Source: Methanobrevibacter gottschalkii DSM 11977 (GTDB lineage Archaea > Methanobacteriota > Methanobacteria > Methanobacteriales > Methanobacteriaceae). From it: DNA of 64,000 nucleotides. Position 1 is the stretch's first letter. Each line of letters opens with the position of its first letter. Position numbers and translations under genes: made by a program. Shown here one piece after another: positions 5,152 to 36,587 of this stretch. The notes beneath the pieces are model-generated. The model made no database searches. It worked only from the letters and a program-made list of their open reading frames with translations, and was not told the origin of the DNA. The stretch lies in the NCBI RefSeq assembly GCF_003814835.1, contig NZ_RKRG01000003.1, positions 248,001 to 312,000 of the forward strand. The letters run 5' to 3'.

Positions 5152-6938
5152 TCCGTGGGTGTCCGCCAAAAATGATTTTTGAGTGTGGATTCTAGTAAAT
5201 GGTCACATCAAGCTTTAATTGGTGTGTAGTGGATATACTTTCACAAAAATCAACAATATCTTCTTTATTATTTTGTTCTCCTTGAATAAGATTATATAAT
5301 CTTTTTATATTGTATGCTAGTGCATCTAGGTTGAGTCTTTCTCCGGTTTTTACCATTCCGATTACTATTTCTTGTTCTACATGGTATTGTTCTTTGAATA
5401 TTCCGAATGGTCCTTCTACACTTGGTCTTTTTTTGAATTCTTCTTTATATTCTTCTTTTTCCATTTTGAAGAACATTGCTCTTTCTAATCTGCCACTGTT
5501 TTCTGTGATGGTTTTATGTGTTTGTTTGTCTGTTAAGCAGGATTTTCTGTGAATGCAGTATTTACATGCAGTATAATTGTTGTAGAGTCTTTTTATTTTG
5601 TCAGGTTTGTCTGGTTCTTCGCTTGGTTGTGTTTATTTTTTGTAGAAGTACATTGGTTGTCCTGTTGGGCACATAAATAAGTCTAGGTCGGATATGTAGT
5701 AAAAGTGGTCTTTATGGAATTGGTTTGGATTTAATTTGCCTATTTTTTCTTTGGATTGTTTTCTTGTTGGTATTAATCCATCTATTCCTTTGTTTACAAA
5801 GTATGATAGGCTTATTTAATTTAAATATATTGTATCTTCACTCATGTGTTTTGGTACTTTTCCTATGTTTTTTATTGCTTTGTCAGCTACTTCTGGTAGT
5901 TGGTAATGGTCTGTAGGGTTTTGTGTGACGTTTAATGCGCAGATTAGTTTGGTGTCGTAATCGACTGCAGATTGGATATTATAAGCAACCAGGAAGTTTC
6001 CTTTTTTGCCTTTCATCATGCGTGCTTCAATATCATTCATTGGTATTTTATCCTGTCCTGTGATTTTGAATTGAGTTCTGATGTCATATAATATTTCTAA
6101 TTTTTCATCATTGGACATTTCCTTGTCATTTAGTATTTTTTGAGCTGGTTTATTGAGTTTTTCAAGCTTTTTAGAGTCAACTTCCAGTCCTTTGTAGAAC
6201 TGGATCAGCAAATTGGTTTCTTTTTTGCTGATCATATTTTGGTTAGAATTGAATGCTTTTTTGATGGTCCCATCGACTACAACATGATTAAATTCAGTGA
6301 ATCCTTTTTTTACGGCCATTTTTAATGTCATTTGAAGCAATACTTCATAATAACGTCCAAATTCATCACGATACCTTTGAATTGAACGTTCAGAGGGTTT
6401 AATTCTAACAAACGAATTTATATATGTCATGGTACTTTGTCATTTCTGCAATGACTCTAGCACTTTCAATATGGTCTATTTTTGCATAAACAAGTAATTT
6501 TAACATGGAACATGGAGGATATGAAGGCCTACCGCCTTTTTTCTTATTCTCTTTAATTCCCAAAATCGGATAAAATTCTTCAATAAAATCAACCACAAAA
6601 CGAGAAATATGATTCTCTGGAACATTAAAATCATAAGTCCTAATGCCTAATTCAGCCTGATTCTTAATAACTTTCTTACTAACCATAAATAACCAACACA
6701 TAATAACTCATATCTAATATAAAATATGTACATCATAGTATATAAATATTACTATTCTAAAAATGACTAAAATCAAATATAAATAAATCATTATAATCCA
6801 TATTAAAAATTATGAATAATAAATAATTAAAATTAAATTCTAATTAATTTAATGAAAAAAATTAACAAAATAAGAAAATTATAACGCAGTTATAAAAAAT
6901 TCAAAATAAAAAAAATTAGTTTTGGCGGACACCTCCGT
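5152..6938. mobile_element. Decayed IS1182-like insertion sequence
   Basis: Both ends carry the same 14-base inverted repeat: GGTGTCCGCCAAAA at 5158-5171 and its complement at 6920-6933. Directly outside lies TCCGT on both sides (5152-5156 and 6934-6938), a likely 5-bp target duplication with one base of slack on the left. Between the ends is a broken minus-strand transposase gene. The readable ends and direct repeats suggest a fairly recent insertion that has since lost its function. Confidence 0.8.
5192..6701 (-). pseudogene. Transposase of IS1182-like family, broken by frameshifts and a stop
   Basis: Three pieces read in order on the minus strand. 6701-6405 holds the N-terminal domain (PSYPPCSMLKLLVYAKIDH). 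6430-5816 continues in another frame with FVRIKPSERSIQRYRDEF and the DDE-type core (VVVDGTIKKAF). After a second frame change near 5816 the frame continues through YFVNKGIDGLIPTRKQSKEK and a Cys cluster (MCPTGQP, YTACKYCIHRKSC), interrupted by a TAA at 5633-5635, and ends with GRLERAMFFKMEKEEYKEEF and SVEGPFGIFKEQYHVEQEI at 5192. Gene order and motifs fit IS1182-family transposases. Two frameshifts plus a stop make it inactive unless recoded. Confidence 0.8.
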
Positions 6939-23892: not shown

Positions 23893-25224
23893 ATGAAAGT
23901 TATTATTGTAGGTGGTGGAGCTGGGGGTATATCTACAGCTTCAAATATTCGTAAACTTGATGAAAATATTGAAATTACAGTCATCACAAGAGATAATAAA
24001 GTAGCATATTCCCCATGTGCTATTCCTTATGTATTGTCCGGTACAATCGAATCTTTTGATGATATTGTAATGAGAACTCCTGAAGATTATAAAAATAAAA
24101 ATATTGATGTTATTATTGAAGCAGAAGTTACAGCTGTGGATTCTAATAAAAAAACAGTTACCTATCAAAAAAATGGTAAAGAAACTGTCATGGATTATGA
24201 TAAATTAGTTCTTGCAACTGGCGGTAATCCTTTTATCCCTCCAATGCAGGGTGTTGATTTGGATGGTGTATTCAGAATTCGCAATATTGATGATGGTATG
24301 AAAGTTCAGGAAGCTTTAAAAGATGCTAAATGTGCAATTGTCACTGGTGCAGGCTTAATTGGTATTGAAATTGCATTTGCACTTAAAAAAAGAGGTTTAA
24401 ATGTTATTTTAAGCGAAATGTTACCTCAAATAGTTCCAAGGTCTCTTGATAAAGATATGTCTGATATTCTGGTGAAATATCTTGAAATGGAAGGAATCCA
24501 AGTTGTTTTAGGAAAACCTATTACTAAATTAATTGGTGATGGAAAAGTTGAAAAGGCATGCTTTGGAGATGAAGATATCTATGATGCAGACATGGTTATC
24601 ATGGCCACTGGTGTTAGAGCTGAATTGGATTTAGCTGAAATGGCCGGCTGTGAAATTGGAAGATGGGCAATTCTTGTCAATGACAGAATGGAAACTTCAG
24701 TAGAAGATGTTTATGCTGTTGGAGATTGTGTGGAATCTAAAGATTTAATTTTAGGTTCAAATACTATTTCTCAATTAGGCACTACTGCAGTTCGTGAATC
24801 TAAAACATTAGCTCGTACTATTTGTGGTAAAAAATCTAAATTTAATCCGGTTTTAAACTCAATGGTTTCAAAAGTTGGGGATCTGGAATTTGGTGCAGTT
24901 GGATATACTACTAGTTTTGCACAACAAAATAGAATCATGCCTGTTGTACAAAAGGTACAAGCACTTACAAGAGCTCGTTATTATCCTAATGCTAAACCAA
25001 TGGATATTAAAGTTATCTGTGATGGGAACGGAACTATTATTGGTTGTCAAATCATAGCGGAAGAAAGAGTAGCTGAAAGAATTGACACTATGACTTTAGC
25101 TATTACTGAAGGTTTAACATGTTTTGATTTAAGTAATATGGAATTTGCTTATGCACCACCTGTTTCAATGGTTACAGACCCATTAATACTTGCTGTTGAA
25201 GAAGTAAGTAAAAAATTCAGTTAA
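23893..25224 (+). CDS. CoA-disulfide reductase / NADH oxidase-like flavoenzyme
   Basis: 443 residues. FAD fold at the start (IIVGGGAGGISTASNIRKL), the single redox cysteine Cys42 in YSPCAIPYVLSG, the second dinucleotide fold near 150 (IVTGAGLIGIEIAFALKKRG), the FAD signature VYAVGDCVE near 276, and a C-terminal dimerisation domain. The single active Cys, without a CxxxxC pair, places it with CoA-disulfide reductases, NADH oxidases and polysulfide reductases. The physiological substrate (oxygen, CoA disulfide or persulfide) cannot be told. It ends 23 bp before the Mrp ATPase gene, which is probably co-transcribed, suggesting redox and Fe-S upkeep. Confidence 0.88.
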   Translation: MKVIIVGGGAGGISTASNIRKLDENIEITVITRDNKVAYSPCAIPYVLSGTIESFDDIVMRTPEDYKNKNIDVIIEAEVTAVDSNKKTVTYQKNGKETVMDYDKLVLATGGNPFIPPMQGVDLDGVFRIRNIDDGMKVQEALKDAKCAIVTGAGLIGIEIAFALKKRGLNVILSEMLPQIVPRSLDKDMSDILVKYLEMEGIQVVLGKPITKLIGDGKVEKACFGDEDIYDADMVIMATGVRAELDLAEMAGCEIGRWAILVNDRMETSVEDVYAVGDCVESKDLILGSNTISQLGTTAVRESKTLARTICGKKSKFNPVLNSMVSKVGDLEFGAVGYTTSFAQQNRIMPVVQKVQALTRARYYPNAKPMDIKVICDGNGTIIGCQIIAEERVAERIDTMTLAITEGLTCFDLSNMEFAYAPPVSMVTDPLILAVEEVSKKFS

Positions 25225-25247: not shown

Positions 25248-26228
25248 ATGGCGGCACATGGACATGGTCATCATGGTCACGGAGGCCAAATGACACCTGA
25301 ACAGCAAAAACAAATGATAGAACAAGATTTAAGACTGGCTAAAAATTTAGGCCAAATCAAACATAAAATTGTTGTTATGAGTGGGAAGGGTGGAGTAGGA
25401 AAATCCACTGTTGCAGCAAATATTGCTGAAACTTTACAAAAATTAGGTTTTAAAACAGGTATTTTAGATGCAGATATTCACGGTCCGAATATTCCTAAAA
25501 TGTTGGGTGTGGATTTATATGGTGAACAATTCAATGAATACCAATTCAAGGTATTTAAAGAAATTACTGAATCTGGAATGGCAGATAAGGACTTCAAAAA
25601 TGATGAAGAAAAATTAGCATTCATTGAAGCTAAAAAAGAAGAATATAAACATTCCATGTTTCCAGTAGTAGCTCCAAGTGGTCTTAAAGTAATGTCTATG
25701 GCATTCTTGTTGGATGGTATTGACAGACCTATTATTTGGAGAGGACCTCAAAAAACAGGTGCTATTAAACAATTAATTTCAGATGCTCATTGGGGTTCAC
25801 TTGATTATTTAATCATTGATAACCCGCCAGGAACTGGAGATGAACCATTGACCGTTTTACAGACTATTCCTGATGCAGATGCAGTTATTATGGTAACTAC
25901 TCCTAATGTTGTATCTCAAGAGGATGTTTTAAAATGTGTAAAAATGGTTGAAATGATGAATATCAAACAAATTGGTCTTATTGAAAACATGGCTTACTAT
26001 ATTTGCCCACATTGTGATGAAAAACTTTACATATTTGGTGAAGGTAATGGTGAAGCATTTGCAGAAGAAATGGAAATCACTTACTTAGGCGATTTGCCGA
26101 TTGAAGAAAAAGTTTCTGATGCACCAAATAATGAAGGGGCAATTTCTGTAATTGATCCTAATGATGAAGTTTCAAAAAGATTTGTTGAAATTGTTAAAGA
26201 TATTCAAAAAGAGTTTATAAAAGAGTAG
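25248..26228 (+). CDS. Mrp/NBP35-type Fe-S cluster carrier ATPase (ApbC)
   Basis: 326 residues. A His/Gly-rich N-terminus (AHGHGHHGHGGQ) precedes a P-loop ATPase with the deviant Walker A MSGKGGVGKSTVAAN (44-58), the switch DADIHGPNIPKMLGV, and LIIDNPPGTGDE as Walker B. The CPHC pair near 245 is the cluster-binding motif. Residues about 100-130 form an acidic/lysine-rich insertion. It carries and hands over iron-sulfur clusters. The His-rich start could bind metal. A GGAGATG site precedes the ATG. The 3' end overlaps the converging SseB-like gene by 14 bp. Confidence 0.92.
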   Translation: MAAHGHGHHGHGGQMTPEQQKQMIEQDLRLAKNLGQIKHKIVVMSGKGGVGKSTVAANIAETLQKLGFKTGILDADIHGPNIPKMLGVDLYGEQFNEYQFKVFKEITESGMADKDFKNDEEKLAFIEAKKEEYKHSMFPVVAPSGLKVMSMAFLLDGIDRPIIWRGPQKTGAIKQLISDAHWGSLDYLIIDNPPGTGDEPLTVLQTIPDADAVIMVTTPNVVSQEDVLKCVKMVEMMNIKQIGLIENMAYYICPHCDEKLYIFGEGNGEAFAEEMEITYLGDLPIEEKVSDAPNNEGAISVIDPNDEVSKRFVEIVKDIQKEFIKE

Positions 26229-26613
26229 GGTTAATAATATAACTTACTCTTGCAATATTTACAATATATCCTAAGAAATTAGGATCCTTTTTTAATTTTT
26301 TAAAGTAATCTAATTTTTCAATTATATATTCCTTATTTTCAGCCATATCATTTAGTGAAAAATAATCCATTGCGATAATGTACTCTTTTTCATCTGTATA
26401 AATTGGAACTAAATACTCTCCGTCATTTGCATAAGGAATCCTCACAGGTTTTCCATTTTCAATAGATATTATAAATTCTTTATTTCTGATATAACCTTTA
26501 ATTTCTTCTTCTGTTTTATTAATTGCAGTTTTATTTTGGTTTTCACCATGCATATAAATCATATTAATATGATTTTTCAATTCAGGATGTTTAATTTCTT
26601 TTAATTTCATCAT
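26215..26613 (-). CDS. SseB-like domain protein, single copy
   Basis: 132 residues. The middle part, FIISIENGKPVRIPYANDGE then YLVPIYTDEKEYIIAMDYF, resembles the SseB core (a strand, then a 'hxxhPhFTDxxEa' motif). The same pattern (IPIFTDIREYAIGSAKI and FVIPVFTDEEEANKAIELF) occurs in the genes at 35067 and 35513, so they are paralogs. SseB-type proteins are small cytoplasmic proteins of unclear role. Start could be the ATG at 26613 or 26610. It overlaps the end of the Mrp gene tail to tail. Confidence 0.6.
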   Translation of the reverse strand: MMKLKEIKHPELKNHINMIYMHGENQNKTAINKTEEEIKGYIRNKEFIISIENGKPVRIPYANDGEYLVPIYTDEKEYIIAMDYFSLNDMAENKEYIIEKLDYFKKLKKDPNFLGYIVNIARVSYIINPTLL

Positions 26614-26643: not shown

Positions 26644-27513
26644 TTATTCAATTTCATCTTTTGGTATGAATCTTAAAGCAGATGAATTTATGCAGTATCT
26701 GGGACTTCCTCCGGGACCATCATAGAATAGGTGCCCTAAATGGGAGTTAGATTTAGCGCTTCTAATTTCTATACGTGTGGTTCCATGGGAATAATCTCTA
26801 TTTTTTATAACTGCTTCTTTATTAATCGGTTTTGAAAATGATGGCCAACCGCATCCTGAGTCGAATTTGTCCTGTGAAGAAAATAAAACTTCACCGCTAA
26901 CAACATCTACATATACACCATCTTCAAAAAAGTTTGTATATTTGCCACTAAATGGCGCTTCTGTCATGGATAGCTGTGTTATTTCATACTCCTCTTTAGT
27001 TAAGTGGTTAAATTCTTCATTGTTTATTAGATTTAAATCAACATGACAGTATCCTTGAGGATTTTTCTCAAGATATTTTTGATGATACTCCTCAGCAGCA
27101 TAAAAACAGTTAATTGGAGATAATTCAATAGATATTCTATTTGATTCTAATTTTTGTTTATCTTTTATAAATTTTAAAATAATATTCTTTTGCGGATTTT
27201 CCTGCCAGTAAATTCCTGTTCTGTACTGGGTTCCAATATCATTTCCCTGGCGATTTTCACTAAATGGATCAATTATTTTGTAATAATTTTCTAAAATTTC
27301 TTCTAATGTAATTATTTTAGGATTGTATGTTACTTTAACAGTTTCTGCATGCCCAGTTTTTCCGCTACAAACTTTTTCATATGTTGGTGCTAAATCTCTA
27401 CCATTGGCATATCCAACCTCAGTTTGATTAACTCCTTTTAATCTGGAAATGAATGCCTCGACACCCCAAAAGCATCCCCCAGCCAAGTAAATAACTTTTT
27501 GATTTGCAAACAT
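26644..27513 (-). CDS. msrAB: Peptide methionine sulfoxide reductase, MsrA-MsrB fusion
   Basis: 289 residues from the ATG at 27513; a TTG at 27534 would add seven. Residues 1-150 are MsrA with the nucleophile Cys14 in [11 protein letters not shown] and [12 protein letters not shown]. Residues 160-289 are MsrB with [22 protein letters not shown] and the catalytic Cys in [11 protein letters not shown]. The CxxC zinc pairs of many MsrB are absent (VDVVSGE and EIRSAKS stand in their place), so this is the zinc-free form. It repairs both S and R forms of oxidised methionine, protecting an anaerobe from oxidants. The order MsrA-MsrB is common in bacteria, so transfer is possible. Confidence 0.93.
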
Positions 27514-27592
27514 AATATATAATTTTATTTTCAAACATAAAATATTTTTATTATGTAATCTATAATTATTAAATAAAATTGGAGGAAATTCT

Positions 27593-27787: not shown

Positions 27788-28072
27788 GTGATTCTTGTGA
27801 TAAGACGTGTAACAAGTGGCAGACGTTTACTTAGAAAAAGAATGTATAAATCACCACATGCCCGTCATAAAAATGCCACATATCATCGGGAAAATAAAAG
27901 CCTTGTTAAAATTCATCAAAATAAGTTTAAAGATATGAACGGTCCTAATATAAAACCTAAAAGAAGGCCTAAACGTGAAGTTCTTGATGGATTTAAAATG
28001 TCTTATAGATATAAATATTACAATAGGGATATTGTAGAAGAAACTGAAGAATCAGATGAGAAATCTGATTAG
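27788..28072 (+). CDS. Small, very basic protein of unknown function
   Basis: About 94 residues from a GTG at 27788 that abuts the upstream TAA; a GTG at 27797 is an alternative. The first 75 residues are rich in Arg, Lys and His (RRVTSGRRLLRKRMYKSPHA) and the last 12 are acidic (EETEESDEKSD). The charge suggests contact with nucleic acid, perhaps ribosome or RNA, but no family motif is seen. Codon use looks normal for the region. Coupled translation with the 27593 gene is likely. Confidence 0.6.
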   Translation: MILVIRRVTSGRRLLRKRMYKSPHARHKNATYHRENKSLVKIHQNKFKDMNGPNIKPKRRPKREVLDGFKMSYRYKYYNRDIVEETEESDEKSD

Positions 28073-28145: not shown

Positions 28146-28454
28146 TTAAATGCTGTTGTTTATACGATTTATTTTATCTTCTTCTTTTGATTTAAGATAT
28201 TCAAAAATGTGTTTCCCTTCATCTGTTAGGGAATATAATTTTCCTTTGTGAATATTCGGTGTTGCGCAATAAACAATATTCTGTTTTTTTAATTGTGATA
28301 ATAGATTACTAATATGATTTGTGCGAACGCCAATAGCATCTCCCAATTCTTTTGGAGTATATAAATTATATTCCATATATAATATTATATTTTTCCTGTG
28401 TTCTGATCCTTGAACATATGCTATTTTTTCTAATAGTTTTTTATCTCTACACAT
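28146..28454 (-). CDS. Winged-helix transcriptional regulator
   Basis: 102 residues. A helix-turn-helix is visible in TPKELGDAIGVRTNHISNLL with recognition helix NHISNLLSQLKKQ, followed by a wing ending KLYSLTDEGKHIFEYL, as in MarR/ArsR-like archaeal regulators. It is a homolog of the protein encoded divergently at 28618, which shares the NHIS(N/R) core, C..hx(K/R)GRLYxLTEKG-like wing. The shared upstream region contains a motif also found before the NhaC antiporter gene. The target genes are unknown. Confidence 0.8.
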   Translation of the reverse strand: MCRDKKLLEKIAYVQGSEHRKNIILYMEYNLYTPKELGDAIGVRTNHISNLLSQLKKQNIVYCATPNIHKGKLYSLTDEGKHIFEYLKSKEEDKINRINNSI

Positions 28455-28617: not shown

Positions 28618-28884
28618 TTGTTGGATAATTCAGTTAAGTATATTTTAAAATCGTCTTATCGTGTTCGTGTTCTTCAGGCAATCGGTCATGATGTAAAAAC
28701 ACCCTCCCAAATTGCAAAAGATAGTTCCGTGTTAAATAATCATATTAGCAGAACATTAAGACAATTATACGAACATGATTTAATAGAGTTGATTAATCCT
28801 GAAATGCATTGTGGCAGATTGTATAGACTTACTGAAAAGGGTCTGGTTGTTTTGAGTATTATTAATAATGAATCTGTCCAATAA
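28618..28884 (+). CDS. Winged-helix transcriptional regulator, paralog of the 28146 gene
   Basis: 88 residues from TTG at 28618 or 28621; GGGTG at 28611-28615 region supports a start there. The helix-turn-helix is TPSQIAKDSSVLNNHISRTL and the wing CGRLYRLTEKGLVVLSI. It is a minimal DNA-binding domain with no sensor domain. It faces the 28146 gene head to head over about 160 bp, a layout typical for regulators that control each other. A short hairpin (CTTTTTT/AAAAAAG) with a T-run follows its stop and may end transcription. Confidence 0.75.
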   Translation: MLDNSVKYILKSSYRVRVLQAIGHDVKTPSQIAKDSSVLNNHISRTLRQLYEHDLIELINPEMHCGRLYRLTEKGLVVLSIINNESVQ

Positions 28885-29566: not shown

Positions 29567-32500
29567 ATGAAATTATTTAACAATAATTTTATATCTGTAT
29601 TATTAATATTATTCGTTTTAGTTCTTGCTGTTAATTCAGTTAGTGCTACTGATAATAATATTACGGATATAAATAATGTTAATTCTAATTTATCCAATGT
29701 ATTGAAAAGTTCTTCTAGTTTAAATGATGGAGATGCTATTTCATATGATTTAATGGATAATAAAGATGTTATTTCTCAAAAATTTTCTTCAAATAGTAAT
29801 ACAAATGATAAGTCAAATATGTCTGATGTGGTTGATTCTATTGAATCTGTTGCAGAACCTACTAGTTTGGATAGTCCTATACTCAGGTCTGTTGTTCCTA
29901 GCGGCATTACATTTGATGGAGTTTTCCATGTTGGTACTGGACAACAATATTCAAATATACAAGACGCATTAGATCAATGTAGGAGAGGCGGATATAATTA
30001 TCAAATTATTATACATGAAGGTACATATACTGGATATGGTAATAAAAATTTAGTTATTGAGCCTACTACTTGGTGGAACCCTAATTTTGGTTACTTGGAT
30101 ATTAGAACTGCAAATGATGGTGATGTGGTAATATTAAATGCAGAAAGATCTCCAAGCATTTTAACTATTAATTCTAGAAATGTTCATATTACTGGATTGA
30201 CATTTATGAATGCTTATAATTATGGTAGTGGTGGAACATCTGGTGCTGGTGTTGCTATAAATATTAGGAAAGGAACTGTATCTATAGATAATTGTTCTTT
30301 TATTAATAATGAAGCTAGAAATCTTTGGGGAGGTGCAGTCCATATTGATTCAAGTATAACAAATCGTATTTCTAATATAGATATTACAAACTCTTTATTT
30401 GTTAATAATAGTGCTGAGGTAGGTGGAGCATTCCGTTCTGAAAGATATTCTAGTAATATTAATATAATTAATACTACATTTATTAATAATACTGCTACTG
30501 AACATGGTGGTGTAGCATGTTTATTTAGTACAGATGTGACATTTGCAAATTGTACTTTTATAAATAACTCTGCTCCTTCATCTGGAGGTATTCATTTTCA
30601 TGTTGGCGGATCACATATCGATAATTGTACTTTTATAAATAATAGTGCTTATGGTACTGGTTCTTCTGAAGAAGGTTATGGTGGAGCTATTGCGTTAGTT
30701 TATAGTACTAGTGATGGTGTTATTATTTCTAATTCTAGTTTTTCCAATAACTTTGCCGGTAAATATGGTGGTGCCATTGATGTAAATGGCAGTGGTAGTA
30801 ATGCTAAAATATTGAACTGTAATTTTGAAAACAATACTGCCGGTTATGGTGGCGCTATCCGTGTTCAAGGTTCTAACACTGTTATTGATAATAACAGTTT
30901 AATTAATAATAAGGCTATTAATACTGATGGTGGTGGAATTCATGTTGAAGGTAGTAATACTCAAATTTCAAATACTATTTTTAGAAATAATTCTGCTGCT
31001 GCTAATGGAGGTGCTTTAGCTATTGTTGCTGGTGATAATACATTTGTTTCCAATTCAGTCATTGCTAATAACACTGCTGTGAATGGTGCGGGTGCTTATA
31101 TTCAAGGAAGAAGAGTAACTATATCCGATTCTATTGTCGCTAACAATACTGCAGACCAAAATGGTGCAGGAGTTTATATTGATGGAAGTTATGCTACTAT
31201 AAAAGACTCTACTATTTATAATAATAATGCTACTGTTAATGGTGGTGGAGCTTATATAAATGGTAGGGATGCTACTATCTCCAATGTTAACTTTGTGTTA
31301 AACAATGCTATTCCTGATGAAGAAGCTTTGGATGATGGTCTTGGTGGAGCTATTTTTATTGCTGGTAGTAATAGTTATATTGAGGATAGTAATTTTACTT
31401 ATAATACTGCTCGTAATGGTTCTGCTATTTATATAGATCCGACAAGTTCTATAGCAAATAATTATATTTATAACTGTAATTTCACTGAAAATCAAGCTTG
31501 GAGTTATTGGTTACCTATTTTCTATAATGATGTAACTAAAACTATTGAATCTAATTTAACTGGTGGAAATAATATATTAAATGCTATTTACAATAATGGA
31601 AGTAACTTACATATTTTCATTGATGGCGTAAATCCTGTTTTGGGATGGGAAAACTCTCAAAATGGTACAATAATGTATCAAGATAACCGTGAGTTTAATC
31701 AAACTATTGTAACTCTTGTTTGGGATAGGCATGGTAATTTAGTATTTAATGAAACTGCAGTTACTGATTTAGCAGGTAATGTTTGTTATGATATTCCTCA
31801 AGATACACATTTATGGTTTATAGTTAGTATGACTCATTTAGAGGATACTTATTATAAAGAAATTACTAATATTACGGGTATTAATATTAATCCTGGTTTG
31901 ACTATTACTGATGTAACTATGTATGAGGGTAATTCAACTCCTCAAACAATATATATTGTTTTAGCTGATGATGATGCTAATCCTATACCAAATGAAGGTC
32001 CAATCATGATTTATGTCATGGTTAATGGTAATAAGATTCTTCTTGGTAGTGGTAATACTAGTAAGAATGCAGTATTGATTCTTAATGAAAGTGCTGTATT
32101 TAAAACATTAAATCCCGGCAATTATACTATTATTGCAGAATGTACATATGCATATTATAATGAAACTACTCAATCCATATCTAATAAAACTGTATCAACT
32201 GAAGGTATTTTAGAAGTTCTTCCATATATCTGGAGTCTTAATAAAACTATTTCTCATGTTAATGGTATTCCATATATTGAGGGTATGGTTATCCAGATAA
32301 ATGATAATGTTACTTTTAATATAACTGTATTTAATGAAGTTAATACTACGTTATATGGATTAAAATTAATTGATTTAAATACTGAAGGATTAAGTTATGT
32401 TTCTACTTTACCTTCCAATTGGAATTATGAAGGTAATAATGTATGGACATTAGATAATCTAGTTAATTATGGAAATTCATCATTATTTGTTACTTTTAAA

Positions 32501-34396
32501 GTACTTAAAACTGGTAATTTAACTAATATTGTTAATTGTAGTTTTCTTGATGGTTTTAAAAATAAAAGTGCTAACATTACTTTTGCAGTTAATTTAACTG
32601 CTGATTTGGGTGTTAGTAAGGTTGTTAATGTTTCTAATCCTAATTACGGTGATTTTATTAAGTATACTGTAGTTGTTTCTAATGCTGGTCCTGATGATGC
32701 TACTGGTGTTGTTGTTAATGAGACTTTGCCTGTGGGTTTGGTTTATGTTAGTGATGATGCTAGTGTTGGTAGTTATGATCATGTTGCTGGTTTGTGGACT
32801 GTTGGTAGTTTGGCTAAAGGTGATAGTGCTACTTTGATTGTTGTTGTGCGTGTTGGTGGTACTGGTAATATTCAGAATTTTGTGAATGTTAGTGGTGCTG
32901 AGTATGATAATAATACTGGTAATAATAAGGCCAATGTTACTGTTGCTGTTAATGCTAGTGCTGATTTGGGTGTTAGTAAGGTTGTTAATGTTTCTAATCC
33001 TAATTACGGTGATTTTATTAAGTATACTGTAGTTGTTTCTAATGCTGGTCCTGATGATGCTACTGGTGTTGTTGTTAATGAGACTTTGCCTGTGGGTTTG
33101 GTTTATGTTAGTGATGATGCTAGTGTTGGTAGTTATGATCATGTTGCTGGTTTGTGGACTGTTGGTAGTTTGGCTAAAGGTGATAGTGCTACTTTGATTG
33201 TTGTTGTGCGTGTTGGTGGTACTGGTAATATTCAGAATTTTGTGAATGTTAGTGGTGCTGAGTATGATAATAATACTGGTAATAATAAGGCCAATGTTAC
33301 TGTTGCTGTTAATCAGCTTAAAACTTATATTATCGTTTTTAATAATACTGTTTATCCTGGTGATGATGTTACTGTTATTGTTACTGTTACTACTCAAAAC
33401 GGTTCATTATTTAATGGTAATGTTAATGTTGCTTTAAATGATACTGCAAACACTACTAAAGTGGTTACTATTGTTGATGGTACTGGTAGTTTTAAGGTTA
33501 CAGTTGATAAAAATCTTGTTAATGGCTATGTAATTGGTATTAATGCTAGTTATGATGGTAATGATACTTATATTGGATCTAAAGGTTTTGGTTGGATTAA
33601 GGTTTTACCAGTCAAATTCCATGTTGAAAAAACTATTGTAAAAGGTAATGAATTTTTCATTGGTGATGAGATAATATTTAATATTACTGTTTATAATGAT
33701 TGTAATGGTACTTTATACAATTTAGTTGTTAGTGATGTTCTTCCTAATGGTGTTGTGCTTATTAATAGTGGTTTTGGGCTTTGGACTTATGATGGTGGCT
33801 CTTCTTGGAGTTATGGTGATTTAAGTGCAGGCGCTAGTGCTACTTTGATTATTAAGTCTAGTGCAGTTAAAGCTGGTAGTTTCACTAATGATGCTAAAGC
33901 TACAGTAAATGATGTTCTTGATAATAGTAGTTTGGTTGATTTCAGTATTTCAAAATTAAATACTAGTATCAGTGTATCTAATGTTACAGGGCATCCTGGT
34001 GATGTAGTTGTTATAACTATTAAAGTTAGTACTGGAGATAATGTTCCGTTTAATGGTGATGTTGATGTTATTTTACTCGATGGTAAAAAAATTATTGTTC
34101 ATGTAACTAATGGTATTGCTAAGTTTAAATGGACTATTCCTAAAAATGCTAAGAATAATACTATATTTAGTATTTTCGTATCATTTGCTGGTAGTTCAAA
34201 ATACTTTGGATCTAATAATACTGGATTTATCAAAGTAATTGATAATAAACAAAACAAAACTAATCATACAGATAACAATGATTTTACTGATAAATGTAAT
34301 AAAGGGATTATTAAAAATACTGGTAATCCATTATTAGTTTTATTAATTTCAATTGTTATTTTGGTTATATCATTAAAACGTAGAAAAGACTATTAA
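29567..34396 (+). CDS. Large adhesin-like protein: beta-helix, DUF11 and Ig-like repeats, membrane anchor
   Basis: 1609 residues. Signal peptide FISVLLILFVLVLAVNSVSA (residues about 7-26). Residues 110-660 are beta-helix coils with repeated (F/S)xNNxAxxxGGA patterns. Residues about 775-885 form an Ig-like domain. Then follow a DUF11-type module (about 890-1010), two identical DUF11 modules of 120 residues (about 1012-1250), an Ig-like module with PGDDVTVIVTVTTQNG, another DUF11 (about 1345-1465) and a last Ig-like domain. The end TGNPLLVLLISIVILVIS plus KRRKDY matches the end of the 10556 adhesin. It is exported and anchored at the C-terminus; the ligand is unknown. A GGAGG precedes the ATG and a hairpin follows the stop. 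The identical modules show recent recombination. Confidence 0.88.
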   Translation: MKLFNNNFISVLLILFVLVLAVNSVSATDNNITDINNVNSNLSNVLKSSSSLNDGDAISYDLMDNKDVISQKFSSNSNTNDKSNMSDVVDSIESVAEPTSLDSPILRSVVPSGITFDGVFHVGTGQQYSNIQDALDQCRRGGYNYQIIIHEGTYTGYGNKNLVIEPTTWWNPNFGYLDIRTANDGDVVILNAERSPSILTINSRNVHITGLTFMNAYNYGSGGTSGAGVAINIRKGTVSIDNCSFINNEARNLWGGAVHIDSSITNRISNIDITNSLFVNNSAEVGGAFRSERYSSNINIINTTFINNTATEHGGVACLFSTDVTFANCTFINNSAPSSGGIHFHVGGSHIDNCTFINNSAYGTGSSEEGYGGAIALVYSTSDGVIISNSSFSNNFAGKYGGAIDVNGSGSNAKILNCNFENNTAGYGGAIRVQGSNTVIDNNSLINNKAINTDGGGIHVEGSNTQISNTIFRNNSAAANGGALAIVAGDNTFVSNSVIANNTAVNGAGAYIQGRRVTISDSIVANNTADQNGAGVYIDGSYATIKDSTIYNNNATVNGGGAYINGRDATISNVNFVLNNAIPDEEALDDGLGGAIFIAGSNSYIEDSNFTYNTARNGSAIYIDPTSSIANNYIYNCNFTENQAWSYWLPIFYNDVTKTIESNLTGGNNILNAIYNNGSNLHIFIDGVNPVLGWENSQNGTIMYQDNREFNQTIVTLVWDRHGNLVFNETAVTDLAGNVCYDIPQDTHLWFIVSMTHLEDTYYKEITNITGININPGLTITDVTMYEGNSTPQTIYIVLADDDANPIPNEGPIMIYVMVNGNKILLGSGNTSKNAVLILNESAVFKTLNPGNYTIIAECTYAYYNETTQSISNKTVSTEGILEVLPYIWSLNKTISHVNGIPYIEGMVIQINDNVTFNITVFNEVNTTLYGLKLIDLNTEGLSYVSTLPSNWNYEGNNVWTLDNLVNYGNSSLFVTFKVLKTGNLTNIVNCSFLDGFKNKSANITFAVNLTADLGVSKVVNVSNPNYGDFIKYTVVVSNAGPDDATGVVVNETLPVGLVYVSDDASVGSYDHVAGLWTVGSLAKGDSATLIVVVRVGGTGNIQNFVNVSGAEYDNNTGNNKANVTVAVNASADLGVSKVVNVSNPNYGDFIKYTVVVSNAGPDDATGVVVNETLPVGLVYVSDDASVGSYDHVAGLWTVGSLAKGDSATLIVVVRVGGTGNIQNFVNVSGAEYDNNTGNNKANVTVAVNQLKTYIIVFNNTVYPGDDVTVIVTVTTQNGSLFNGNVNVALNDTANTTKVVTIVDGTGSFKVTVDKNLVNGYVIGINASYDGNDTYIGSKGFGWIKVLPVKFHVEKTIVKGNEFFIGDEIIFNITVYNDCNGTLYNLVVSDVLPNGVVLINSGFGLWTYDGGSSWSYGDLSAGASATLIIKSSAVKAGSFTNDAKATVNDVLDNSSLVDFSISKLNTSISVSNVTGHPGDVVVITIKVSTGDNVPFNGDVDVILLDGKKIIVHVTNGIAKFKWTIPKNAKNNTIFSIFVSFAGSSKYFGSNNTGFIKVIDNKQNKTNHTDNNDFTDKCNKGIIKNTGNPLLVLLISIVILVISLKRRKDY
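32599..33313 (+). repeat. Perfect tandem duplication, 360-bp period
   Basis: 32599-32953 and 32959-33313 are identical base for base (355 nt), each encoding one DUF11 module starting ADLGVSKVVNVSNPN. The 5-nt joins differ slightly from the flanks. The lack of any silent change shows that the copies arose or were homogenised recently. The stretch is also richer in GTT/GGT codons than its neighbours. Confidence 0.97.
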
Positions 34397-34787: not shown

Positions 34788-35057
34788 TTATTTTAATAAT
34801 TCTTCTTTTAAAATAATTTTATTTTTAGAATGTATGTCTAAAATAATGCCGGAAAATTCATCATCGTTATTTGCAAGCTTTTTAAATAATTCAATTGAAA
34901 CTTCATAAGGTATATAATCAGCTAATTTTAAGTATTCAAAACCCTTTTTGTATTCTTCCATGTTTGAAAATACAATTATTTTAAAATCATCAAGACTTCC
35001 AGTAACAAGAAAATCTTTTTCATGACCTTCACCTATTGTAGGGCAAATAAAGTTCAT
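34788..35057 (-). CDS. Third gene of SseB-like operon, 89 residues
   Basis: The ATG at 35057 is chosen because AGGTG sits just before it at good spacing; a GTG at 35066 lies within that site. The protein reads MNFICPTIGEGHEKDFLVTG, IIVFSNMEEYKKGFEYLKLA and ends with IILDIHSKNKIILKEEL. The central 'VFSNMEEYKKG' takes the place of the 'IPIFTDxxE' motif of the two upstream genes, and 'IILDIHSKN' parallels 'FVINPHSQN' in its neighbour, so it looks like a shortened relative. It follows the 35067 gene without a gap. Function unknown. Confidence 0.6.
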   Translation of the reverse strand: MNFICPTIGEGHEKDFLVTGSLDDFKIIVFSNMEEYKKGFEYLKLADYIPYEVSIELFKKLANNDDEFSGIILDIHSKNKIILKEELLK

Positions 35058-35066
35058 TTTAAACAC

Positions 35067-35510
35067 CTAAAAACTCGCATTTCTATCCATATTAAAGTTC
35101 TGTGAATGTGGATTAATTACAAATCCTTGAAAATATTCATCTTCATCAGCTAGTTTAGATATGTCTTCTGGACTGAGGACATTCATCTCTAATTTATCTA
35201 AGAATAATTTGGATATTTTTGCACTTCCAATAGCATATTCTCTAATATCTGTAAAAATTGGAATAATATATTTTTTGCTTTTTTCAGTTAAAGTTAATTT
35301 AACAGGTTTTCCACTCTCATCCACTAATGTAAAATAAATCTCGTTAGGAAATGTGTTTTTAATATTTTTTTTGATAACTTCAAGCTCAAGAGCATTTTCG
35401 CTCTTGAGTTTTTTGGCCATATCTGCATATATTTGAATATATTCCTTTAATTGGCTTTTTGAAGCTTTCACATTATTTTTTTGGTAATCTTCGTAATCTT
35501 TAATATTCAT
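35067..35510 (-). CDS. SseB-like protein, second gene of operon
   Basis: 147 residues. An N-terminal helix rich in Lys/Gln (EDYQKNNVKASKSQLKEYIQ) precedes the SseB-like core: YFTLVDESGKPVKLTL, YIIPIFTDIREYAIGSAKIS, LSPEDISKLADEDEYFQGFV and INPHSQNF. Starts 2 bp after the stop of the 35513 gene. The core aligns with the single gene at 26215 (IENGKPVRIPYAND, LVPIYTDEKEYIIAMDYF). SseB-type domains are found across bacteria and archaea, often in tandem, with no assigned chemistry. Confidence 0.65.
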   Translation of the reverse strand: MNIKDYEDYQKNNVKASKSQLKEYIQIYADMAKKLKSENALELEVIKKNIKNTFPNEIYFTLVDESGKPVKLTLTEKSKKYIIPIFTDIREYAIGSAKISKLFLDKLEMNVLSPEDISKLADEDEYFQGFVINPHSQNFNMDRNASF

Positions 35511-35512
35511 AT

Positions 35513-36001
35513 TTATTCACAACATTCGTGAACATCTTCACCACCGATTACAAAATCCCATTGTGGTGCATTAATGGCAAGTCCAATGAATTCTTCATCT
35601 TCAGCATATTCAGAAACAATTTCATTACCAGTTTTTTTATCACAAACAAATTCATTTTCTTCAAATTGTTCTTTGAAAAGTTCAATAGCTTTATTTGCTT
35701 CTTCTTCATCAGTAAAAACAGGAATAACAAATTCCTCTACTTCTTCATCTTCTTCACTTATAATTAATGCAACAATTTCTTTTTGTTCACTTTTAGCATT
35801 AGATACAATAATGAATTCTTCGCTGAAAACAATGTGTTCAATATCATGATAAATGTTACCTAATTGTTCGATTTGTTCTTTGTGCTCTTCTTCAAATGTG
35901 TCATCAAGTTCTTCTGATTCGCTTAATGCCGCTTCAATCTTTTCGTTTAAATCATCATCAATTTCAATAAATTTTTTAACTAATTCTTTAAGTTCGCTCA
36001 T
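35513..36001 (-). CDS. SseB-like acidic protein, first gene of operon
   Basis: 162 residues from the ATG at 36001, fixed by GGTGATATA directly upstream; longer starts up to 36079 lack such a site. It is extremely acidic (EIDDDLNEKIEAALSESEEL; EEDEEVEEFVIPVFTDEEEA). The SseB-like core is EEFIIVSNAKSEQKEIVALI and FVIPVFTDEEEANKAIELF, and it ends in GEDVHECCE, with a Cys pair and His that might bind metal. It leads a three-gene operon whose promoter lies inside an inverted repeat at 36118-36161. The function is unknown. Confidence 0.65.
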   Translation of the reverse strand: MSELKELVKKFIEIDDDLNEKIEAALSESEELDDTFEEEHKEQIEQLGNIYHDIEHIVFSEEFIIVSNAKSEQKEIVALIISEEDEEVEEFVIPVFTDEEEANKAIELFKEQFEENEFVCDKKTGNEIVSEYAEDEEFIGLAINAPQWDFVIGGEDVHECCE

Positions 36002-36117
36002 TATATCACCGTATGTGTAATAATCATTAAAATAAGTTTTTTTTTTAAAACAAATGAACATTCTCTTCCTAAACACCACTAAAGGAATGCAAACGAATGC
36101 TCATTTCAACCATCACC

Positions 36118-36161
36118 ATTGTTCATATTATAAAAAAATAGTATATAACAATATGAACAAT
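36118..36161. promoter_or_regulatory. 12-bp inverted repeat spanning the SseB-like operon promoter
   Basis: ATTGTTCATATT (36118-36129) and AATATGAACAAT (36150-36161) are exact reverse complements, 20 nt apart, centre to centre 32 bp or three helical turns. The spacer holds TTATATAC (on the minus strand), a good TATA box at about 36142-36149 for the leftward operon. Two repressor dimers, or one looping protein, could enclose the promoter. This is inferred from sequence only. Confidence 0.5.
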
Positions 36162-36587
36162 AATATTTTTATTTTCAACCTATATAAAGTTTAAGGTTCA
36201 AAATTAGCTTTCAGTAGCTTTTATTAAGGGATATATAAGTTTATTTGTATTAACATCATTATTGTTTTTTTCATAATATTTTATAAATTTTCTTTTTAAT
36301 TAGTCAATTTTTATTTTCCTTTGAATATACTGGGTGGTTTGATGAATAATGTTTATAAGTGTAAAAATGGTTCAGGTAGAAGATGTTCTATGTTTTTATG
36401 AATTATATGTGCCGTTATAATTTTAATGATTATTTTTTTGAATTTTTTCATGTGATTCAAAATATCTGAATTTTGAATTTAAAAATTTTAAAATTTATCT
36501 TAAAATTCAATATATTTATATAATTTTTAGTTAATTCATAAATTTTAAATGTTAAATCTTTTATATTATTAGAACTAAAATAATTGT
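36162..36587. other. Intergenic stretch without a recognisable gene
   Basis: Very AT-rich with frequent stops in all frames. It separates the leftward SseB-like operon from the rightward antiporter gene. Apart from the promoter elements listed on both sides I see no relic or structured RNA. Confidence 0.5.

Follow-up and report, generated by a model that had tools for sequence, protein, structure and literature searches.

In bacterial attenuators of the trp and tnaC type, a short leader open reading frame (ORF) with its own ribosome-binding site overlaps a hairpin, and a U-rich tract and the operon follow. Here we describe an element of approximately 110 nucleotides (nt) with these parts that lies ahead of three genes for SseB-like proteins (geneA, geneB and geneC) in Methanobrevibacter gottschalkii DSM 11977, within a stretch of 64,000 nt (contig NZ_RKRG01000003.1, positions 248,001 to 312,000; the whole stretch is referred to below as the window, and positions are counted from its first letter). 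Methanobrevibacter is among the leading producers of methane in the rumen and in the human gut. As in a leader-peptide attenuator, a ribosome-binding site together with a short ORF that overlaps a hairpin is found in 51 of 53 loci. Unlike the trp and tnaC attenuators, however, the element is archaeal, holds no run of regulatory codons, places the AUG of its ORF inside a stem, is near-invariant and can be separated from the operon; read-through into the operon is here a proposal only.

The element may also be set beside RNAs found by comparative genomics. The candidate RNAs of Weinberg et al. 2010 (PMC2864571) share with it the comparative approach, the base-pair-conserving changes and, in many cases, an open function; the main text of that paper nowhere uses the words Methanobrevibacter, smithii or Methanobact-. 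The small RNA sRNA154 of Methanosarcina mazei (PMC3600222) is likewise from a methanogen, although of another lineage. Among the open-access literature matches listed we found neither a description of the element nor any structured regulatory RNA of Methanobrevibacter. No family of Rfam 15 came near its gathering score, the best being mir-367 (21.8 bits against a threshold of 54; E values of 0.033 and 0.84), the S15 leader (18.2 against 39.5) and U6atac (12.5 against 33).

We consider it probable, at roughly 0.8, that this element, including the inverted repeat at its 5′ end, is a functional structured RNA, predicted to be transcribed towards the SseB-like operon; the figure covers its identity as such an RNA and not its mechanism. 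In particular, we infer that the element is transcribed and acts as RNA, that in most species it serves geneA-B-C as a 5′ leader, and that it can also be kept apart from the operon, so that the RNA would be a leader and possibly also an independent RNA. On the best reading it would be lineage-specific, a new form within the broad kind of structured regulatory RNAs, and the predicted layout, in which a putative ribosome-binding site sits between two hairpins, is unusual.

Conservation and predicted fold of the element

Across the 47 loci in which the element is complete and geneA starts cleanly, the approximately 110 nt from the inverted repeat through the second hairpin (hairpin 2) have a median pairwise identity of 97.3% (lowest 75.8%), compared with 61.7% for geneA DNA (75.9, 81.9 and 47.9% at codon positions 1, 2 and 3), 56.5% for the 120 nt upstream and 54.2% for the stretch between the element and geneA. 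Trimmed to the hairpins, these leaders comprise 17 distinct sequences, whereas the geneA proteins are distinct in all 47 loci (with a few flanking bases included, 26 distinct leaders are present in 48 loci). Such conservation is of a degree that might be expected of ribosomal RNA. The original prediction had set conservation of the repeat as a test, and the repeat is indeed kept within this near-invariant element in most species of the genus. An RNA held at a median identity of 97% across the genus, against 62% for the DNA of the next gene, must have a demanding partner, which, once found, would test whether archaea use ribosome-responsive leaders.

The inverted repeat itself, with two perfect 12-bp arms, is as originally described (Table 1), and it is the only exact pair of these arms with a spacer of 10–30 nt in the genome. 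We do not attach significance to the repeat alone: the window holds 3 perfect 12-bp inverted repeats with spacers of 3–40 nt against 0.7 expected from 20 first-order Markov simulations, and 1 of the 20 simulations likewise reached 3, so that in this AT-rich window the repeat by itself is at chance level. A TATA-like box (TTTATATA, CTTATATA, CTTAAATA or CTATATAT) lies 26–27 nt upstream of the first hairpin (hairpin 1) in 48 of 48 loci, which makes it most likely that the inverted repeat folds as the first hairpin of an RNA transcript. The usual archaeal spacing between TATA box and start would put the start at or just inside the 5′ arm; transcription is thus expected to begin at, or a few nt from, the 5′ end of hairpin 1.

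The original prediction had placed the promoter between the arms and had taken their spacing as three helical turns, and neither claim survived comparison among relatives. Within the loop, the TATA-like string varies between relatives (GTTATATAC, GTTATGTAC and TTACATAC occur in its place), and the loop measures 20 nt in only 33 of the 48 loci, with lengths of 18, 19, 21, 28 or 37 nt in the others and 23 nt in genomes G001 and G006. Varying loop length is tolerable for an RNA loop but usually not for a two-arm DNA site. Together with the conserved TATA-like box outside the repeat and the RNA covariation described below, this led us to reject a framed promoter or operator. Specifically, we regard it as highly improbable that the repeat is a DNA operator on whose two 12-bp arms a repressor loops or blocks the promoter. 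A symmetric protein site could also account for the perfect symmetry of the arms, the prevalence of the 20-nt loop and the substitutions that match between the arms in 3 of 29 sequences, but the arm spacing is not constant, the TATA-like string that is kept is the outside one rather than that between the arms, and an operator would have no need of the downstream hairpin, which is equally conserved, covaries and contains G-U pairs. Nor does the genome hold a second exact pair of arms: a search for the repeat elsewhere, as suggested with the original prediction, returned four other exact copies of AATATGAACAAT, all of them single (two lie inside ORFs of at least 100 codons), and a genome-wide regulon of paired sites was accordingly rejected.

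Compensatory changes support a folded RNA. When 29 sequences were aligned by model fitting, which favours the structure, two-sided changes were seen in all three helices and at 7 of 28 pairs; in hairpin 1, A-U is replaced by G-C on both sides in 3 of the 29 sequences. In alignment A3, made with MAFFT for hairpin 2 and including the divergent G001 and G061 forms, all 150 cells are paired and 6 of 15 pairs show two-sided changes. For both alignments, none of 500 shuffles matched the percentage paired, the number of two-sided pairs or the covariation score. A first MAFFT alignment of 26 sequences has 99.3% of cells paired, with two-sided changes at 2 of 28 pairs. When the pairing was slid by 1–3 columns in the three alignments, 37–56% of cells were paired (37–54% in A3 alone), against 99–100% in the true register. 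Compensatory changes thus exceed both the shuffles and the slid pairings. G-U pairs, found in 18 of 29 sequences at one pair and in 6 of 29 at another, show the geneA-sense strand to be the one that folds. Folding z-scores range from −3.2 to −5.3 for 11 near-full-length sequences, and a fold with two hairpins flanking the GGUGAU linker was likewise obtained for the G061 form (locus L098), which entered the alignment with its hairpin 2 part only. As a candidate for the alternative structure that an attenuator would form, UAGUAU, which lies ahead of hairpin 1, was paired with the loop of that hairpin; this pairing was discarded, with 90.8% of cells paired and zero two-sided changes.

Several observations pull the other way. 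For the first MAFFT alignment, 17 of 500 shuffles reached its 2 two-sided pairs, and in no alignment did the number of further pair types rise above the shuffles (492, 490 and 469 of 500 reached it). In the model-fitted alignment 18 of 28 pairs never vary, so the covariation rests on few sequence types; the type of hairpin 2 accounts for 5 parsimony changes on the geneA tree, which holds one mis-framed member (L056). An 88-nt piece without hairpin 1 has a z-score of −2.2, with 6 of 200 shuffles as good. Locus L008 is without most of the 5′ arm of hairpin 1 and L020 is without both that arm and the promoter, so either hairpin 1 is dispensable somewhere or these are assembly errors. Finally, three good-quality genomes of the genus (G029, G048 and G066) do not have the RNA.

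Two further observations concern these sequences. At L020 (G037:C25), the apparent 3′ end of panE is fused to the 3′ arm of hairpin 1, which would reflect a deletion or an assembly chimera. At L026, L027 and L042, sequences with hairpin 2 of type 2 fall within groups of type 1 in the tree of geneA; either convergent double changes or an exchange of leaders between species may account for this.

Distribution in the genus and separation from the operon

With a covariance model the RNA was detected in 58 of the 67 genomes from the genus, including 34 of the 37 good-quality ones, usually as a single copy; second entries are copies at contig ends or weak opposite-strand matches over the same place. 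Matches to geneA are present in 61 of the 67 genomes (in named genomes, geneA gave 20 loci, all of Methanobrevibacter, including M. thaueri and M. millerae). The two go together closely: the RNA is present in every one of the 57 genomes whose geneA match is close (E value of 1e-20 or better), and among the other 10 only G061 has it. The RNA stands immediately before geneA in 54 genomes (53 plus G044), a count that includes L008 and L020, which are without the 5′ arm of hairpin 1, and three loci cut by contig ends. Counted by locus, the element is upstream of geneA in 53 of 60. The loci without an adjoining element are L024, where a transposase-like ORF is upstream, L065 and L066 (in G001 and G006), where the element is further upstream, and L067–L070, which hold distant relatives of geneA.

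In four genomes the RNA does not lead directly into geneA. A convergent ORF of 234 amino acids lies between the two in G001 and G006; in G011 they lie on separate contigs, and a transposase-like ORF adjoins each; and G061 has the RNA and no geneA match. The RNA is therefore kept in these genomes without leading directly into the operon. In G011 (L024, L104 and L099), such an ORF, by eye IS605 TnpB in type, is found upstream of geneA on one contig and at the 3′ side of an intact RNA on the other, as if an insertion sequence had separated the two.

These genomes raise the possibility that the RNA is itself the product, acts in trans as a small RNA, and sits beside the operon by ancestry. The RNA is very highly conserved, is intact with compensatory changes in G001 and G006 despite the convergent ORF before geneA, and is kept in G061 with no matched geneA. 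We nevertheless find such a role doubtful, given that the RNA is never missing from the 57 genomes with close geneA and directly precedes that gene in 54. Moreover, in a search of both strands of 151 genomes with the 15-nt loop of hairpin 2, the exact matches listed for the genus are the element itself, and one-mismatch matches, whose contexts were not examined, are about as common as those of a reversed control pattern; this search covers the 15-nt seed only. The loop is matched exactly in G072 and G079, and with one mismatch in G008; these matches were rejected, there being by eye no surrounding hairpin with GGUGAU. Inspection of the RNA by eye also revealed neither CUGA nor a terminal ACA, as in guide RNAs of the box C/D and H/ACA kinds.

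Outside the genus nothing convincing was found, either in 150 and 151 genomes of the order and phylum under stricter filters or in 24 genomes under laxer ones. Searches of more than 40 genomes used the stricter filters, which lose weak matches, and a strongly diverged form elsewhere is therefore possible. Weak model hits outside the genus and second hits inside it were put down to chance after inspection of the alignments of two sets of loci, one of 10 and one of 8 (the hit in G086 and several with E values above 0.2 fell outside this inspection), and a hit in G082 was rejected as lying inside a long ORF. A viral source was also rejected: a 21-nt piece of the element has no exact match among viral_contigs, and phages gave no match.

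In several draft assemblies a contig ends inside or beside the element (L043, L051, L054, L100 and L101), and in G046 and G036 the element is found at two contig ends; this would fit a sequence that is difficult to assemble or that varies within populations. In genomes without the RNA, two to five diverged geneA-like matches occur, mostly close together (G029:C7 and C2, G024:C15 and G008:C79).

The linker, the micro-ORF and candidate mechanisms

Between the two hairpins, the GGUGAU linker resembles the ribosome-binding sites before geneA and is followed after 5–7 nt by an AUG that opens a frame of 11–12 codons. Among 47 folded loci the linker has a mean unpaired probability of 0.59 and the AUG of this micro-ORF one of 0.07. 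The in-frame AUG and the fixed stop are intact in 51 of 53 loci, with the variants MSIRLYSFSGV, MISIRLYSFSGV and MNIRLYSFSGV in relatives and MSIRYYSFSGV in G001 and G006; in type 2 elements the start is shifted by one codon and the frame is kept.

The mechanism we prefer, which we put forward tentatively as one possibility, is that of a ribosome-responsive RNA. In this proposal a 30S subunit would dock on GGUGAU, translation of the micro-ORF would melt hairpin 2, whose state ahead of the U-rich tract would decide whether transcription or translation continues into the operon. Against this proposal speaks, first, the region behind hairpin 2. That region is poorly conserved, at the identity given above for the stretch between element and geneA, and holds no conserved read-out region in the 47 loci; runs of T occur in it in 32 of 47 loci, a mild enrichment over shuffles (23.4, with a largest value of 33). 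The ribosome-binding region of geneA is not clearly masked, with a mean unpaired probability of 0.47, and 0.31 for the geneA AUG. With neither clear masking of the geneA site nor a conserved region behind hairpin 2, the read-through step is without direct support. In addition, the micro-ORF is broken in L028 (at the stop), in L064 (at the start) and in G061 (by an early stop). A wider proposal, in which this genus-specific RNA would sense translation, 30S docking and the stem-locked start of the micro-ORF switching its states, and would control the redox-repair operon in cis, and in trans where the two lie apart, strikes us as speculative and rather unlikely to hold in full.

If the peptide itself were the conserved product, the hairpins would merely regulate its start. 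The position of GGUGAU, the in-frame AUG and fixed stop in nearly all loci and the in-frame shift of the type 2 start all fit such a micropeptide gene, as do the codon changes in G001 and G006, where AGC to AGT, CGT to CGC and TAT to TAC are silent and TTG to TAT alters the residue. However, the third codon positions are almost frozen, which a peptide would not require, and the fold is kept in the three loci in which the ORF is broken. We thus judge a micropeptide gene to be quite improbable.

That the leader of the operon holds a small-molecule riboswitch, perhaps with a redox-related ligand, also appears unlikely. Its leader position, the hairpin 2 loop that is invariant in most sequences and the redox-repair genes nearby would suit one. 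Yet the stems are as fixed as the loops, unlike those of typical aptamers, no conserved expression platform lies behind hairpin 2, no Rfam family matches near threshold, and the RNA is kept in the four genomes in which it does not lead directly into geneA.

The SseB-like operon and the redox-repair island

Ribosome-responsive or otherwise, the predicted leader adjoins three minus-strand genes, as the original prediction had it (Table 1). The gaps are 2 nt between geneA and geneB and 9 nt between geneB and geneC; an alternative GTG start of geneC at 35066 would close the latter to 0 nt, and the ATG was taken because relatives begin at the same place. The relatedness of their cores holds in part. 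The xIPIFTDxxE motif is present in geneA and geneB, and gene D, the fourth paralog that had been placed at 26215 and is confirmed there, has the version VPIYTDEKE, whereas the motif of geneC is degenerate (IIVFSNMEE). Profile–profile comparison gives probabilities of 93.7% for geneA with geneB, 96.6% for geneB with geneC and 99.9% for geneB with gene D, but only 3.9% for geneA with geneC. The strong acidity ascribed to one member is borne out by geneA (isoelectric point 4.05; aspartate plus glutamate 32%). Its terminal cysteine pair is not conserved as a pair: in a 21-member alignment the first cysteine is an invariant column and CC ends 10 of the 21.

To our knowledge there is no agreement on the function of SseB-like proteins, and the relationship proposed for the operon products is upheld only as a distant one, through relatives and profiles. 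In the window, geneA (13.7 bits) and geneB (15.0) are below the 21-bit cut-off of Pfam SseB (PF07179), and geneC and gene D have zero matches to it at an E value of 1. Members of the geneA alignment match at 0.1 or better in 6 of 12 cases (best E value 2.3e-5), as do 7 of 8 in an alignment of geneB relatives with gene D (best 8.5e-4); a 296-amino-acid ORF elsewhere in the same genome has two SseB matches above the cut-off. With SseB domain proteins, geneA and geneB share the IP-x-F-T-D-x-x-E core and a later G-x-x-I-N stretch; they differ in the extra acidic helical hairpin that geneA has in its predicted model, and geneC is a short form of 89 amino acids. This AlphaFold model (predicted local distance difference test score, pLDDT, of 86) places the helical hairpin at residues 3–60, ahead of an alpha/beta domain. 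It has zero Foldseek matches to solved structures at an E value of 0.001. Its best solved look-alike is TTHA0547 (Z 8.0; root-mean-square deviation 2.9 over 89 residues), followed by Tic22 chains (Z 7.2 and 6.6), scores that are at the level of common arrangements and too weak for a claim. Sequence searches of PDB gave no convincing relative, and those of NCBIfam gave sub-threshold matches only. Taken together, the sequence comparisons support the view that the operon encodes divergent paralogs that are probably distantly SseB-like.

Table 1 Features of the element, the operon and the surrounding island (positions within the window)
Feature	Position	Strand	Remarks
TATA-like box TTTATATA	36181–36188	−	predicted promoter of the RNA
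Hairpin 1, 5′ arm ATTGTTCATATT	36150–36161	−	paired in folds
Hairpin 1 loop	36130–36149	−	U-rich; 18–37 nt across loci
Hairpin 1, 3′ arm AATATGAACAAT	36118–36129	−	99.7% of cells paired
Linker with Shine-Dalgarno-like GGUGAU	36112–36117	−	invariant in alignments A1 and A3
Hairpin 2, loop UUUAGUGGUGUUUA	36052–36106	−	outer 12-bp stem 36095–36106/36052–36063; inner 4-bp stem 36084–36087/36066–36069
Micro-ORF MSIRLHSFSGV*	36069–36104	−	AUG in hairpin 2 stem
U-rich tract	36028–36051	−	poorly conserved; from hairpin 2 to geneA ribosome-binding site; possible termination region
geneA	35513–36001	−	162 amino acids, acidic; N-terminal helical hairpin and alpha/beta SseB-like domain
geneB	35067–35510	−	147 amino acids, SseB-like
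geneC	34788–35057	−	89 amino acids; profile relative of geneB
Beta-helix/DUF11 protein	29567–34396	+	1609 amino acids
Winged-helix-like short ORF	28618–28884	+	by eye
Winged-helix-like short ORF	28146–28454	−	by eye
Small, very basic protein	27788–28072	+	about 90 amino acids; in L145 at 6190–6474 (−)
msrAB (methionine sulfoxide reductase AB fusion)	26644–27534	−	ORF; Pfam PMSR and SelR matches are those of the L145 relative, not of the window copy
gene D	26215–26613	−	fourth paralog; adjoins msrAB; same place in L145, L153 and L154
NUBPL-type iron-transfer P-loop NTPase (nucleoside triphosphatase)	25248–26228	+	ORF; Pfam from the L145 relative
Pyridine-nucleotide-disulfide oxidoreductase	23893–25224	+	ORF; Pfam from the L145 relative

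The operon is part of a larger island whose genes are named from Pfam matches in L145 alone and by likeness in the other loci. In L145, L153 and L154, panE and the leader are followed, in this order, by geneA, geneB, geneC, a small basic protein (opposite strand), msrAB, gene D, the NUBPL NTPase (opposite strand) and the pyridine-nucleotide-disulfide oxidoreductase (opposite strand). Gene D, described at first as a distant paralog, is therefore by shared synteny a member of the same island. In L163 the order is similar with extra genes, and in L147 the list of ORFs has no geneC-like one adjoining. The window holds the same set of genes inverted, with a gene for an Na+/H+ antiporter instead of panE beside the leader. 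Here a 1609-amino-acid protein, absent from that place in L145, L153, L154 and L163, separates geneC from the rest of the island. The pairing of a dedicated RNA with conserved genes of redox repair would offer a genetic handle on SseB-like proteins. Of the roles originally suggested for the protein set, tight control would suit a leader so highly conserved across the genus, and a part in stress would be compatible with the neighbouring methionine sulfoxide reductase, oxidoreductase and NUBPL NTPase genes; no observation made here hints at export.

Three minor observations concern the neighbours of the operon. The small, very basic protein, which is conserved and lies opposite geneC in the island of relatives, has zero Pfam matches at an E value of 0.001. 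The translation of the 1609-amino-acid protein contains two near-identical tandem DUF11 blocks. Between msrAB and that protein lie two short ORFs on opposite strands that appear by eye to be related to one another and to resemble winged-helix regulators.

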